Source: Nostoc sp. JL34
Lineage (GTDB): Bacteria > Cyanobacteriota > Cyanobacteriia > Cyanobacteriales > Nostocaceae
Direction: 5' to 3'
Assembly (NCBI RefSeq): GCF_017114945.1
Contig: NZ_JABXKQ010000042.1
Location: forward strand, 46,108-110,107
Length of the DNA: 64,000 nucleotides
The position numbers and the translations under genes are program-made. Under the pieces are notes generated by a model. That model searched no databases, was not told the DNA's origin, and saw only the letters and a list, made by a program, of their open reading frames with translations. Below are positions 53,443 through 60,638 of the stretch, piece by piece. The stretch's first letter is position 1, and each line of letters starts with the position of its first letter.

Positions 53443-54738
53443 TTAAGGGAGCCATTGTAATCCCTTATTCTGTAGTTTCTGCTCGATCTGCTGCATTTCC
53501 TGGATAGTTTCTCCAGTCACGATCGCATAAATTTCGGTGTAAAATTTTCCGTATTTGACCCTCTCTAAAGCCGACAAAACGATCAAGTCCTTGCGATCTA
53601 GTTCTGGTTTTAAGGTGACTAAAATTAAATCTAACGTTCCTTCCATGCGGTAGCTACTAGAATATTTAGCAACTTCCTTTCCCAGTCCCAGTAGGGTGTG
53701 ACGCTGCAAGCATAACGGAGTCGATCCATTGACTCGGAAATTGGCATCGATTGCATAGAATTGTCCGTCTCGATCTTCAAGCACATCGAACCCAATCACG
53801 CCGAAATAACCCTGTTTGTGAGCATACTCACCAATAGCGGCAATCATCTCAAAGAACTTGCTCATGTCAGTGTTGCGGTAGTCAATCAGTCCCCCTAAAT
53901 AGTTACCTTCTGGAGTGACGAGTTGGCTGGTAGTGCCGATGAGGGTTATCTCTCCCGTTTTGTTGACATAGAACTGTACGCAGTAATTCTGTATCTCATT
54001 CTTAACGAACTCCGAGACAATAATCCTATCGAGCAACTTAATATCCAGATATTTCTTGATTTCTTCAAGACAGTAGTTCAGATCGCTGAGGCTTTTGATG
54101 ATATAAGTGCCTTCTCCTGAGAGTCCGTGGGACGTTTTAATTAAGTAGGGAAATTGTGGTAAATAAATGTCTTCTAGATTACAAGTGTGTAAATCGTAAC
54201 TCTCGTATTTTGGACATTGCACCCCCAGTTCGGCTAGGGTTACTTTGCTGAGTAAACGGTAATGAGTGTCTGAATCAATAGCGTGTTTTTCAGGTTTTAG
54301 ACGATCAAAGGGAAATAGAGTGATGAGTTTGTCAAAGCGTTCGCCCTTGGCGTTGGCGCAGCCATCGCTGTGGCTGAGATCGTCCAAATAAGTTAAGCGA
54401 TCCATCATCAACCTATTGGAGTAGCTGAAGCCGAAATGCTCTTGCCAGTATGCAAGCAGCGACTTTGGCGGCGGATTAATCGCAATTCCTGGAATGCGAT
54501 CGCCTAATACAGCTAAAATTTTCCAAGGTTCCTTTTGGCAAATCTTGTCAAAGGAGGTTTTGGTGGCTTCACTACTGCCATCTTGAATAAAATATTTTTC
54601 CAGGTTGGGATAAGCAGCCCAACTTGCAGTTGCAGGGTAATTTAGAATAAACCCATAAGATGCATCTGTGATATCTTGAGCAAACAGATCGGAAAGAGAA
54701 CTCCCTTGAAAGTATTGAAAGTTATATTTTGAGTTCAT
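53443..54738 (-). CDS. ATP-grasp ligase (PGM1-like)
   Basis: The protein has 431 residues. A pre-ATP-grasp N-terminus (about 1-170) precedes the ATP-grasp core: FPYLIKTSHGLSGEGTYIIKS (about 190-210) holds the nucleotide-binding lysine and glycine loop, and GFDVLEDRDGQFYAIDANFRVNGST (about 320-345) holds the metal-binding Asp/Asn. The IDANFRVNGST block and following helical tail recall peptide ligases of the PGM1 (pheganomycin) group. Such enzymes join amino acids or peptides through an acyl-phosphate. ATG overlaps the stop of the upstream 79-residue gene (ATGA), a sign of translational coupling. Residues DGCANAKGER appear to be encoded by a GC-rich dispersed repeat at 54337-54368. Confidence 0.82.
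   Translation of the reverse strand: MNSKYNFQYFQGSSLSDLFAQDITDASYGFILNYPATASWAAYPNLEKYFIQDGSSEATKTSFDKICQKEPWKILAVLGDRIPGIAINPPPKSLLAYWQEHFGFSYSNRLMMDRLTYLDDLSHSDGCANAKGERFDKLITLFPFDRLKPEKHAIDSDTHYRLLSKVTLAELGVQCPKYESYDLHTCNLEDIYLPQFPYLIKTSHGLSGEGTYIIKSLSDLNYCLEEIKKYLDIKLLDRIIVSEFVKNEIQNYCVQFYVNKTGEITLIGTTSQLVTPEGNYLGGLIDYRNTDMSKFFEMIAAIGEYAHKQGYFGVIGFDVLEDRDGQFYAIDANFRVNGSTPLCLQRHTLLGLGKEVAKYSSSYRMEGTLDLILVTLKPELDRKDLIVLSALERVKYGKFYTEIYAIVTGETIQEMQQIEQKLQNKGLQWLP
54337..54368. repeat. Possible small dispersed repeat inside the ATP-grasp gene
   Basis: GCGTTCGCCCTTGGCG followed by TTGGCGCAGCCATCGC is markedly GC-rich in an AT-rich gene and has the look of Nostoc small dispersed repeats that start and end with GCGAT/ATCGC parts. 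It keeps the reading frame and encodes a loop before the ATP-grasp core. Assignment is from appearance. Confidence 0.4.
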
Positions 54739-55280: not shown

Positions 55281-56216
55281 TTAGCTGCTAGGAACAGATA
55301 AGCTTGGCTTAACGCGTTTCACGAAGGTTAGCGGCATTACTCCCAACCATTTCTCTCGAATTATACCTTCCTCTAACAATACACCAGTTGGAAAAGCATT
55401 GGTTAAGCGTGCCACGACGGTAGGACTCATTGCCACTACCGGAAAGTTGATATTATTAGATTGAACAAATTCTTCAACTTGTTCTGATGTTTGGGGAATT
55501 CCCGCTACTACATCAGGTAAATCAGTTCTTTGGTGAACGACTTTTAGCACTTTGAGCCAGTTTTTGCACGTTGGACAACCAGGCATTAAAAATACAACCA
55601 GTTTTTCTTCTGTTGTTAAACTTTCGGGATATTCTTTTAGCCATTGGGGTTGCCAAGGACGATTAACCTTAAGCGGATCTAAGTCTAGAATAGGTTTTTT
55701 CTTCTTCCAGAAATACACATAAGAAACAGCAGTTAATAGACAACTTGTTGTTAAAGAAATCAATAATGCTGTCACTTGTTGGGAAACAGTTAAAATATCG
55801 GCAACCGGATAAAACCAAGCCAACCCCATCAAAGTAATGTAGAGAGCATTGAGGAGTAAGCTTTGTTTGGGACTGATATCAATTATACCGTTATAACAAC
55901 CACAATCATCTGTGCGTTTGGTCGAAGTACTCCAGTAAGTTAAACTTGATAGGAGCAATAGTAAAACAATTGTACCGATAAATAGCCACTGGGGAAACAG
56001 CCGCAAAATCAGGGATATTCCCAGGACACACTCTATAATTGTAAAAGCGATCGCTGCACCTATATTCACTTTTTGTGGAAATAACTGCAATTGACTGATG
56101 TGGATAAGAAACCTTGTTGGTGCAAGTGCTTTGATAACACCAGTCACCAGAAATACACTGCCAACCACCAAAGAACTTATCAGAGAGATTGAATACATAA
56201 TGCTTGCGATCGTCAT
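55281..56216 (-). CDS. MauE/DoxX-type membrane protein fused to a thioredoxin-like domain
   Basis: The protein has 311 residues. The N-terminal half (about 1-170) has four to five membrane spans with a MauE-type DCGC motif at 104-107 in a loop. The C-terminal half (about 200-305) is a thioredoxin-like fold with FLMPGCPTCKNW (CPTC at 214-217) and a FPV cis-proline at 258-260. Such proteins move electrons or form disulfides across the membrane. It starts 61 bp after the rodlin-like gene on the same strand. A role in the disulfides of the two Cys-paired peptides upstream is inferred from adjacency. Confidence 0.85.
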   Translation of the reverse strand: MTIASIMYSISLISSLVVGSVFLVTGVIKALAPTRFLIHISQLQLFPQKVNIGAAIAFTIIECVLGISLILRLFPQWLFIGTIVLLLLLSSLTYWSTSTKRTDDCGCYNGIIDISPKQSLLLNALYITLMGLAWFYPVADILTVSQQVTALLISLTTSCLLTAVSYVYFWKKKKPILDLDPLKVNRPWQPQWLKEYPESLTTEEKLVVFLMPGCPTCKNWLKVLKVVHQRTDLPDVVAGIPQTSEQVEEFVQSNNINFPVVAMSPTVVARLTNAFPTGVLLEEGIIREKWLGVMPLTFVKRVKPSLSVPSS

Positions 56217-56236
56217 TTAATCGTAATAGTCAATAG
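56200..56236. repeat. 37-bp direct repeat, copy 1 (start of MauE gene)
   Basis: The sequence (plus strand ATGCTTGCGATCGTCATTTA, then ATCGTAATAGTCAATAG) recurs at 56717-56753 with one mismatch. It contains the ATG and first codons of the MauE-type gene plus 20 bp upstream. Confidence 0.85.
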
Positions 56237-56277
56237 CTATATATACCATCTAAGTTTCAGCTACCGGCAGAACCATT

Positions 56278-56634
56278 TTAAGACAAAACTGGTATATTAT
56301 CTAGTATGTGTGACAGGGGTTCATCTCCTTTTGCTTGTGTTGAATTCTCTGTACATTGTTGATTTTGTGGGTTACTTAAAATATTAATATCTTGAACTCC
56401 TACATTTACTACACCAAGTAGGGATTGAGCATTAATTTTAGCAGGTAAACCTATACATGGTTTATTGAGAGTTCCTTGAACTAATCCTAACTGAGGAGAT
56501 AGATCGAGACCTCCTACTACTGCCATTAATTCTGCATCACTCAATTCTTCAAACAAGCTAGTTTCCAAGTCAGCAATTTTGTTGTTTGTCATAAGTTCTT
56601 TGTTCATTAATTGAAGTTGCATTGATTTAAGCAT
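56278..56634 (-). CDS. Rodlin-like protein with a double-glycine leader
   Basis: The protein has 118 residues; an internal ATG at codon 15 could also be the start. Residues 27-42 ([16 protein letters not shown]) are a bacteriocin-type double-glycine leader, predicting cleavage after Gly42 by a C39-peptidase ABC exporter. The remaining 76 residues ([54 protein letters not shown]) match, as I recall them, the rodlins RdlA/RdlB of Streptomyces, which organise chaplin fibrils into surface rodlets. Cys60 and Cys94 are the two conserved cysteines. Streptomyces rodlins use Sec signal peptides, so the leader has been exchanged. Flanked by 37-bp direct repeats. Confidence 0.8.
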
Positions 56635-56716
56635 ATTATAATGCTTAATTTACTTCAGATTTAGATGTATTAATTTTTCAAAAAAAATCCCTTAACCTTT
56701 TAAAGATTTATCTAAT

Positions 56717-56753
56717 ATGCTTGCGATCGCCATTTAATCGTAATAGTCAATAG
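56717..56753. repeat. 37-bp direct repeat, copy 2 (truncated second start of MauE gene)
   Basis: Copy of 56200-56236 with one mismatch. On the minus strand it holds ATG at 56733 with MAIASIL, continuing only to 13 codons before TAA, so it is the broken 5' end of a duplicate MauE-type gene. Confidence 0.85.
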
Positions 56754-56764
56754 AGCGCAAATGG

Positions 56765-57037
56765 TTACGCATTTACACAAGTATTCCCGAAAGCTGGGTT
56801 AAGTAGACCAATCACATTGATAGTATTACCACAAACATTAATGGGTACATGAACAGGTACTTGAATAACGTTCCCCGAAATAACTCCAGGAGAACCAATA
56901 GCAATTACGGCATCAACTCCGCCAACTATAGTTAATAAATCAGCATCATCTAGTTCTTCAAACAATTCTAGTTCTTCTTGAGTGACTGTAGGTACTTGTT
57001 TTATTGCTTGTTTCTTTGTTGAAAATAGTTTTAACAT
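56765..57037 (-). CDS. Chaplin-domain protein with a double-glycine leader
   Basis: The protein has 90 residues. Residues 25-40 (LFEELDDADLLTIVGG) form a double-glycine leader almost the same as in the neighbouring rodlin-like gene. The predicted mature 50 residues are a chaplin domain: GSPGVISGNVIQVPVHVPIN, CGNTINVIGLLNPAFGN and TCVNA, with the paired cysteines Cys69 and Cys87. Short chaplins of Streptomyces assemble into amyloid fibrils that make aerial hyphae and spores hydrophobic. They are exported by Sec; here an ABC exporter with a C39 peptidase would be needed and none is in the window. First gene of an apparent chaplin / rodlin-like / MauE-thioredoxin unit. Confidence 0.92.
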   Translation of the reverse strand: MLKLFSTKKQAIKQVPTVTQEELELFEELDDADLLTIVGGVDAVIAIGSPGVISGNVIQVPVHVPINVCGNTINVIGLLNPAFGNTCVNA

Positions 57038-59226: not shown

Positions 59227-60531
59227 TTAGGAAATCTCATCGTTATCAACCCACTCGTCATAAGATGAGTCATAACCAATGTAATGAAGAAAGTATTGCT
59301 GACCTTGGATTTGCTCAATAGTTGCAGAATACCAAGCCTCTTGCTCATCATCCCAACATTTTACCTTTTGACCTACTGCATATCCATTGTCATCAGCAGC
59401 GCGAAGATCGCGAGTGCGAATGTCATCTTCGCCCACCCACTCATCATAAGATGAACCGTAACCAAGGTAATGAATAAAGAATTGGTCATCTTGCATTTTC
59501 TCAATTGTTCCCTGATACCAATCCTCGTCTTCATTATCCCAGACTTCCACTGTTTTGCTTACTTCATACTGATTCTTATCTGACTTGACAGCAGATGAGA
59601 CATCTTGGATCGGCTTTTGCTCTTCTTGTTTAATTTCCTCTTTCACTAAAGTGTATGCTTGCAAAATCAAACTGCGAGCTACAGTTTGAATTCCCGTATG
59701 CTCATAGTAATTGGTAGTTTGATCTAGGAATGCTGCAACCAAATCTAAATTATCATCAGCAATCTGAATAAAATTACCCAAATTACTAGAAATTGATTGC
59801 GGGGTTACGCCTGTCTTGGATACTAAGTTATTCATCCAGCCTTGCACGGAGTTGAAACCCTGACTGATAAAACCAACTTTATCAGACGGATTACTGCCTG
59901 GGAGAAAGTTATTAACAGCTAAGAAAACGGGATTTTGAGCTATGACGCTAGTATCAGTACCACTAATAACTCCGTGAATTTTGCTGAGGAAGTCGGGGCC
60001 TAATGGCAGAATTCCGTCTAGACAAACTAGAGCTACCATCCGCATTAGGGATGCATTTTGATAGTTATTAGCAAGGGAATTAGCAAACTCTTGAGGATTA
60101 GGTTGAGGAATACCATTTAGTTTGCAAAAGGCGATAATTTCGACAGCTATTTTTAGTACCAAGTCAATGGATTGAGTGACATCAGCTTTGGGAGTAATTT
60201 TACCTAAAAAAGACAGAAAGCCGATTTTCTCACTAACTTTATTTGCTAAAGCCGCTGCTCCCATAGCTGTGTCTGCTTTATCAATCGTTTGATAAAGTTT
60301 GATTGCGAACCCGTAGCCTTGTTGAGGATCTTCGTATAAGGTGACAGCGCGATCGCGGATTTTCTGAATTACCTTAGCATCGGTTTCTCCAGTAATGGTG
60401 CGAATATTATTCTCAAACCCCGTTAAATTGCTCCATTCACCTGGTGCGACATAATCAAGAGCCTTTAAAACTTTGACAGTAATATTGTCAGTCGGTAATT
60501 CGTCAACCAACTGAATAATTGATTTATCCAT
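59227..60531 (-). CDS. Protein with a helical N-terminus and two C-terminal Tudor-knot/agenet-like modules
   Basis: The protein has 434 residues. GAGGAG six bases before the ATG at 60531 decides the start; the frame extends 18 codons to a GTG. Residues about 1-310 are predicted mainly helical with no family I recognise (DKSIIQLVDELPTDNITVKV at the start). Two near-identical modules follow at about 328-372 and 390-434: VEVWDNEDEDWYQGTIEKM ... HYLGYGSSYDEWV and VKCWDDEQEAWYSATIEQI ... HYIGYDSSYDEWV. These are the chromo-barrel/Tudor-knot type known from eukaryotic chromatin proteins. In bacteria their ligands are unknown. Probably cytoplasmic. Confidence 0.8.
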   Translation of the reverse strand: MDKSIIQLVDELPTDNITVKVLKALDYVAPGEWSNLTGFENNIRTITGETDAKVIQKIRDRAVTLYEDPQQGYGFAIKLYQTIDKADTAMGAAALANKVSEKIGFLSFLGKITPKADVTQSIDLVLKIAVEIIAFCKLNGIPQPNPQEFANSLANNYQNASLMRMVALVCLDGILPLGPDFLSKIHGVISGTDTSVIAQNPVFLAVNNFLPGSNPSDKVGFISQGFNSVQGWMNNLVSKTGVTPQSISSNLGNFIQIADDNLDLVAAFLDQTTNYYEHTGIQTVARSLILQAYTLVKEEIKQEEQKPIQDVSSAVKSDKNQYEVSKTVEVWDNEDEDWYQGTIEKMQDDQFFIHYLGYGSSYDEWVGEDDIRTRDLRAADDNGYAVGQKVKCWDDEQEAWYSATIEQIQGQQYFLHYIGYDSSYDEWVDNDEIS

Positions 60532-60638
60532 CAGCCGCTCCTCAAAACTCAAAATATCGTTAGAATCCGGTTCAGAGCAGCCCACACCCTACAGCAAGCC
60601 TTTCTCTGGTTGGTGCTGGGCAAATTACTGAACTGTAT

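Follow-up and report, generated by a model that had tools for sequence, protein, structure and literature searches.

Chaplins and rodlins are the textbook tools of Streptomyces aerial growth and make spores water-repellent, and the known chaplins and Streptomyces rodlins typically carry a Sec signal peptide. According to a passage in PMC5618249, there are two cysteines in each of the short chaplins D, F, G and H; those of ChpH are important for fibril formation in vivo, while the disulphide is not needed in vitro. Obvious rodlins are placed in streptomycetes only by an excerpt of PMC4255298, and section 8 of PMC5314377 gives that the RdlB 28-42 peptide alone forms fibrils, and that deletion of 17-42 abolishes RdlB fibrils but deletion of 17-29 or of 31-42 does not. 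For double-glycine (GG) leaders, PMC6363468 sets out a pattern of Leu-12, Glu-8 and Leu-7 ahead of the double-Gly motif. EbfG1-4 of Synechococcus elongatus, which go with the exporter PteB, are small GG-leader proteins that are needed for biofilm, three of which are amyloid-forming in a test system; they are not described as chaplins or rodlins. An extract of PMC9981879 likewise reports amyloid formation, on expression in E. coli, by GG-leader proteins of a cyanobacterium other than ours. A literature search returned no paper on a cyanobacterial chaplin or rodlin among the matches listed. The names 'chaplin' and 'rodlin' are already attached to Nostoc proteins in NCBI-type naming, with no mention of leader or operon, and the presence of both in Nostoc is thus already on record; the GG-leader form is a real and rare variant that was not found described in the literature searched.

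The window, the whole stretch of 64,000 nucleotides analysed from Nostoc sp. JL34, carries on its minus strand, read from 57037 to 55281, a chaplin gene, a rodlin gene and a gene (mauE) whose product joins a MauE-type membrane protein to a thioredoxin-like domain (Table 1), the last of which begins 61 bases past the rodlin ORF on the same strand. The host genome (7.82 Mb, 184 contigs, 99.97% complete, contamination 0.17%) and that of a lichen Nostoc, G404, belong to one genus.

Table 1. Features of the chaplin-rodlin-mauE region of the window.
Feature	Position	Strand	Remarks
Chaplin gene	56765-57037	(-)	90 aa; PF03777 domain behind double-glycine leader
Chaplin double-glycine leader, 40 aa	56918..57037	(-)	similar leaders in relatives P0122-P0133
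Mature chaplin domain, 50 aa, 2 Cys	56768..56917	(-)	PF03777 E 6.9e-24
Rodlin gene	56278-56634	(-)	longest ORF 118 aa; 104 aa from internal ATG 56592
Rodlin double-glycine leader, 28 aa from internal ATG	56509..56592	(-)	TIGR01847 over cut-off, alignment
Mature rodlin, 76 aa, 2 Cys	56281..56508	(-)	NF041022 129.8 bits, alignment
Rodlin early stop and untranslated 3' remainder	56257..56280	(-)	full-length relatives 7 residues longer
MauE-type membrane protein fused to thioredoxin-like domain, 311 aa	55281..56216	(-)	PF07291 E 2.8e-17
37-base direct repeat, copy at mauE start	56200..56236	not assigned	
37-base direct repeat, copy just after chaplin	56717..56753		read as mauE 5' end remnant, 97% identical

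A first-pass annotation, made from the sequence alone, had recognised a chaplin and a rodlin-like sequence here, and profile searches confirmed both far above the cut-offs of their families: the chaplin matched PF03777 in a Pfam scan (E 6.9e-24, 83.9 bits, cut-off 21), and the rodlin matched NF041022 (E 6.4e-38, 129.8 bits, cut-off 75) over profile positions 54-128 of 134. Neither family was matched in any of 14 control genomes. The Pfam scan of the rodlin gave no rodlin family and only lantibiotic models below cut-off; the rodlin relatives among the matches listed bear the precomputed label PF25848. With the Streptomyces short chaplins (ChpD-H, PF03777) the window chaplin shares the mature domain and the two cysteines characteristic of chaplins D, F, G and H, and several of its cyanobacterial relatives have the same N-terminus over 12 residues. 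However, the Streptomyces proteins have a Sec-type signal, whereas the cyanobacterial chaplin has a GG leader and, as neighbours, mauE and (in Brasilonema) an exporter. The core of Streptomyces RdlA/RdlB (NF041022/PF25848), from KPC to NIPVLS, is conserved in the window rodlin, which among the matches listed is up to 95% identical to Streptomyces rodlins over 64% of the protein, but in contrast to them it has a GG leader, misses about the first 26 mature residues and is 7 residues short. The probable start codon of the rodlin is the internal ATG, at which most of the aligned cyanobacterial relatives also begin. The protein is not of full mature length, beginning near position 26-27 and, with one TAA inside the family match, ending 7 residues before the full-length relatives, among which longer copies free of this early stop are present. 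Alignment of 14 cyanobacterial chaplins and of 8 rodlins showed both cysteines to be invariant.

The leaders end in VVGG (rodlin) and IVGG (chaplin). That of the rodlin matched TIGR01847 (bacteriocin_sig) with 16.9 bits (cut-off 15.7), and that of the chaplin scored 16.5 bits against ComC (PF03047), below the cut-off of 20.4. At positions -12/-8/-7/-4/-2/-1 the rodlin has L/E/L/V/G/G, the C39 leader pattern in full, and the chaplin has L/D/L/I/G/G, the same pattern with Asp at -8, which fits substrates of C39 peptidases and agrees with the double-glycine leaders first proposed for both proteins. The combination of L-12, E/D-8, L-7 and a hydrophobic residue at -4 was found in all 17 cyanobacterial GG chaplins (window copy included), one of which has Ala-Gly in place of Gly-Gly, and in the window rodlin together with all 7 listed GG rodlins; a regular expression for GG leaders does not catch the window chaplin. 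Neither window leader has a Sec-like hydrophobic core, the highest 15-residue Kyte-Doolittle mean being 0.66 in the chaplin and 0.86 in the rodlin, and, judged by hydropathy and the GG leader, neither protein has a Sec signal. When the rodlin leader was used as a query for further copies in its own genome, as had been suggested, it returned, besides the pair itself, a single additional GG peptide with a weak match (E 1.2).

The junction of leader and cargo lies differently in the two proteins. Six of the 17 GG chaplins continue after the leader with 12 residues that are found unchanged in listed actinobacterial, mostly Streptomyces, chaplins, and these 12-mers occur in 38, 16 or 6 of 104 listed actinobacterial chaplins, depending on the 12-mer. 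In the actinobacterial proteins the 12-mer is commonly preceded by AxA, the commonest endings being such as LAVA, MAVA and LASA, which are presumed to be signal-peptidase sites. This 12-residue identity suggests that the signal was exchanged at the presumed processing point; the window chaplin itself is altered within the stretch. In the rodlin, the junction falls within what is presumed to be the mature protein, and the alignment shows the residues of the Streptomyces proteins up to about 26 to be gone; the window copy keeps a 15-residue stretch equivalent to RdlB 28-42, which is absent in 3 of the 7 listed GG rodlins (P0005, P0010 and P0016). From sequence features of this kind we infer export, disulphide formation, fibrils and coating, and consider it probable that a C39-peptidase ABC exporter cuts both cargoes at Gly-Gly and releases them outside, where they would likely cover the cell or colony with an amyloid film.

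Among the best 120 of 3729 and the best 120 of 4223 matches in protein searches for relatives, chaplins with such leaders were found in Nostoc, Brasilonema and Tolypothrix, and GG rodlins in Nostoc. In genome sets that overlap, a chaplin was present in 1/386 genomes of the phylum, 7/217 of the family and 4/53 of the genus, and a rodlin in 2/53 of the genus; genomes G404, G455, G459 and G454 appear to be those of loci L013, L014, L015 and L016 and are not independent cases. Carriers include a lichen cyanobiont locus, and the strain names Nostoc ChiVER01, CmiVER01, DedSLP03 and ChiQUE01b occur in a paper on cycad coralloid roots (PMC10999742), the first three in its sample tables. Actinobacterial contamination of the contig, considered from the outset as what might undo the assignment, was checked and is very unlikely: third-position GC is 18% in both genes and 35% in mauE at a window GC of 41%, such genes stand in contigs of several other cyanobacterial genomes with relatives in the three genera named, and the contamination estimate for the genome is as low as given above.

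The chaplin and rodlin domains with their double-glycine leaders stood up, but the accompanying proposal that the two had been acquired together did not. No rodlin match was found in the three Brasilonema genomes that have the chaplin, and in the window a copy of the mauE 5' end stands on either side of the rodlin: the stretch after the chaplin stop is repeated at the mauE start, over 37 bases at 97% in the window and over 51 bases at 88% in L013. Since these repeats flank the rodlin and the Brasilonema chaplin-mauE spacer resembles, by eye, the copy after the chaplin, the chaplin-mauE arrangement is probably older, with the rodlin inserted between; loss of the rodlin in Brasilonema is the less economical alternative. 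The window genome also encodes a second rodlin (L031:1297-1716 (-), contig C97), with a Sec-like start (hydropathy 2.74, AYA site) and a full-length C-terminus, the close relatives of which are P0242 and P0243 (Nostoc) and P0241. The GG rodlin shares codons with it, 53 of 62 same-residue codons being identical against 31.6 expected, and the two rodlins therefore share a cyanobacterial ancestor. Independent acquisition of the window GG, own Sec-like and L013 GG rodlins was rejected on the same comparison, with 53/62, 49/51 and 50/56 codons identical against 31.6, 27.0 and 28.4 expected; the expectation is drawn from the genes' own AT-rich codon use, as window codon use gave smaller p values and was too lenient. 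It is thus more likely that the GG rodlin derived from one that cyanobacteria already possessed. The chaplin codon test was weaker, with p from 0.0008 to 0.11 for nine Nostoc-Brasilonema GG chaplin pairs, and from 0.05 to 0.27 for the Sec-like chaplin of G409 against six others, which does not establish one origin. The tree that had been proposed for the rodlin (117 rows, 61 columns) placed the cyanobacterial GG rows scattered among Streptomyces and was mostly unresolved, the one supported grouping being that of the four cyanobacterial rows of the Sec-like kind (98/83). A grouping table of this tree that omits the Streptomyces rows was set aside, and since it holds the closest listed relatives only, it says nothing on the donor lineage. 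The order of events would then be that the bacteriocin slot next to mauE first received a chaplin domain of Streptomyces type and that later, in Nostoc, a rodlin domain from a rodlin adapted to cyanobacterial codon use was inserted between chaplin and mauE.

Horizontally acquired genes could also be kept by chance, and the pair may be decaying passengers, the window rodlin being already truncated. The early stop in the rodlin, a chaplin remnant in G431, the patchy spread in phylum and genus given above, and genome G456, where the interval from HlyD to mauE contains neither a chaplin ORF nor a match to PF03777, all speak for this. Between the window and L013, dN/dS of the mature parts was 1.03 for the rodlin (68 codons), that is near 1, and 0.69 for the chaplin (50 codons), with 1.15 for the chaplin leader (36 codons), 0.23 for the rodlin leader and 0.21 for mauE, the values of the short parts resting on 28 to 68 codons; this pattern possibly reflects relaxed constraint, recombination or adaptation. 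Against decay stand the invariance of both cysteines across the aligned chaplins and rodlins, the kept leader pattern and the link to mauE. Streptomyces genes are GC-rich, and because the mature rodlin is up to 95% identical to Streptomyces proteins at 18% third-position GC, long purifying selection is needed. Passive decay is thus unlikely, and an exported surface film of chaplin and rodlin remains the preferred reading.

A gene that regularly accompanies this putative coat is mauE. In the 217 family genomes it was found at 75% identity or more in 7 and at 41-46% in 2 more, the chaplin being in 7; the two occur together in 6 (Fisher p 4e-10, not corrected for relatedness). A GG chaplin is present in 6 of the 7 genomes with a close mauE (at least 75%), G456 being the exception, and the only chaplin without one is the Sec-like one of G409 (L043:9763-10122 (+)). 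The CGC and CxxC pairs of the fusion protein are invariant in 8 of 8 proteins aligned. A profile search matched its thioredoxin part to PDB 8t4c (E 2e-4), and by structure this part resembles ResA-like folds; the structure model is poor (mean pLDDT 53.5), with the thioredoxin part alone usable, so that the structural matches in the PDB contribute little more than the profile search had given. In a literature search on MauE nothing relevant was found, only papers that look unrelated. With two cysteines in the chaplin, two in the rodlin and four in a bacteriocin-like cargo of G431, the protein may, with less confidence, have a role in disulphide formation of the cargo. Substrates of one-step exporters skip the periplasm, and a membrane thioredoxin acting on the cargo fits badly with this.

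The slot beside mauE appears to exchange its contents. In G431 the order is chaplin, a protein with a hybrid leader, a chaplin remnant and mauE, and the hybrid joins the leader start of the chaplin to the leader end of the rodlin in front of a different cargo; P0134 is a chaplin bearing the rodlin leader start. Leader and cargo thus appear to recombine at the mauE site. This G431 protein, a GG peptide (L042:10177-10407 (+)) with four Cys, matches PF04604 (lantibiotic) just above cut-off (21.9 against 21.7 bits), with PF10439 below cut-off. Such a neighbour would suit proteins used as weapons or signals, in which Streptomyces look-alikes, sent out by bacteriocin machinery, join into or damage the rodlet layer of Streptomyces living nearby, as would the core of Nostoc rodlin P0001, identical over the 61 tree columns to Streptomyces P0009 despite the 18% third-position GC of the window genes. 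However, a Sec-like rodlin and a Sec-like chaplin also occur in Nostoc, which points to use on the producer, and small GG-leader proteins serve biofilm formation in Synechococcus according to an extract of PMC4997328. We regard a weapon or signal as improbable. Within the favoured reading of a coat on the producer, we would suggest, tentatively and on sequence comparison, that the mauE-adjacent slot takes interchangeable Cys-bearing cargoes (chaplin, rodlin, bacteriocin-like) behind one leader kind, and that a cyanobacterial lineage has in this way remade the rodlet coat of Streptomyces with the machinery of bacteriocin export, by means of a one-step exporter.

A C39 exporter had been predicted as the route, and 11 C39-peptidase matches were indeed found in the window genome. 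Exporter genes stand beside a GG chaplin in three Brasilonema loci (L014-L016; B. bromeliae, B. sp. CT11 and B. angustatum), where an HlyD-like gene, the chaplin, mauE and a C39 ABC exporter form a row on one strand, with a 201-aa ORF between mauE and exporter in B. bromeliae, but none adjoins the window pair. In L015 (CT11), the only locus scored, the adaptor matched TIGR03794 with 347 bits (cut-off 156) and the exporter TIGR03796 with 1168 bits (cut-off 853). These are the types of NHLP-type bacteriocin export, from which the chaplin loci differ in that their cargo is a structural coat-protein domain and not a recognised bacteriocin. In the window genome, contig C121 carries the exporter closest to the Brasilonema type, identical at 77% over 732 aa and accompanied by an HlyD of its own (55%); a further three such exporters reach 58-62%. 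A full-length exporter of the Brasilonema type (75-77%) is present in 14 of the 53 genus genomes, 12 of which have no chaplin. The lichen Nostoc G404, which has the pair, has a broken exporter gene (55-69%, 3 TAG) and a 32% relative, with no intact one, and G431 has a 63% relative; since both carry further C39 exporters, the exporter partner is not fixed, and the link between exporter and chaplin is not exclusive. That the leader is read by a different protein with a C39 domain, for example an exporter resembling HetC in differentiating cells, with the coat limited to specialised cells (heterocysts, akinetes or hormogonia), draws on these 11 matches and on HetC being a peptidase-type exporter in Nostoc (part of PMC10986499), but with an NHLP-type exporter as the neighbour of the Brasilonema chaplin it is very improbable.

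For the NHLP-type route to a surface film, the mechanism would run as follows. The GG leader takes the place of the Sec-type signal of the Streptomyces relatives on both chaplin and rodlin, and an NHLP-type exporter with HlyD adaptor and TolC-like pore would move the cargo through the two membranes in a single step. Such transport would account for the preference of a cell with two membranes for this route over Sec. The MauE-thioredoxin protein may make or repair the disulphide possible between the two cysteines of each cargo, and the exported chaplin and rodlin would form the amyloid film over cell or colony. If true, coat proteins of single-membraned bacteria would have become an outside film on a two-membraned, photosynthetic and often symbiotic cell. 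The cross-phylum signal swap at the presumed cleavage point suggests that functional-amyloid coats can move between envelope types by a change of export tag alone, and the pair is a candidate, open to testing, for a part in the water repellency of lichen and cycad Nostoc or in their contact with the host.

Several further arrangements were observed in these genomes. In Nostoc G428 (L055:5052-10256) a row of HlyD-like gene, C39 ABC exporter and mauE (46%) stands without a chaplin, and GG-type precursors were seen by eye about 2 kb downstream. In genome G078 (L056:8403-10646) a MauE-thioredoxin relative (~40%) adjoins two small proteins, of 218 and 200 aa, that begin almost identically. Brasilonema angustatum has an array of near-identical GG-leader peptides, MNALNAIETATNALASVNWELQDELNDADLMAISGG, at L016:18880-20002 (-) and L057:412-1534 (+). 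Contig C97 of the window genome encodes a GG peptide (L032:1435-1623 (-)) whose leader has an internal repeat, ELRELSEN-ELRELSEE. In the window itself, positions 53443-54738 (-) encode an ATP-grasp protein weakly like L-aspartate-L-methionine ligase, which is also near the unit in L013 and was not seen in the Brasilonema or G431 loci. Positions 59227-60585 (-), and likewise L013:6413-7729, encode Tudor-knot/Agenet-type domains (PF11717 E 3.5e-9), names that are known from chromatin readers.
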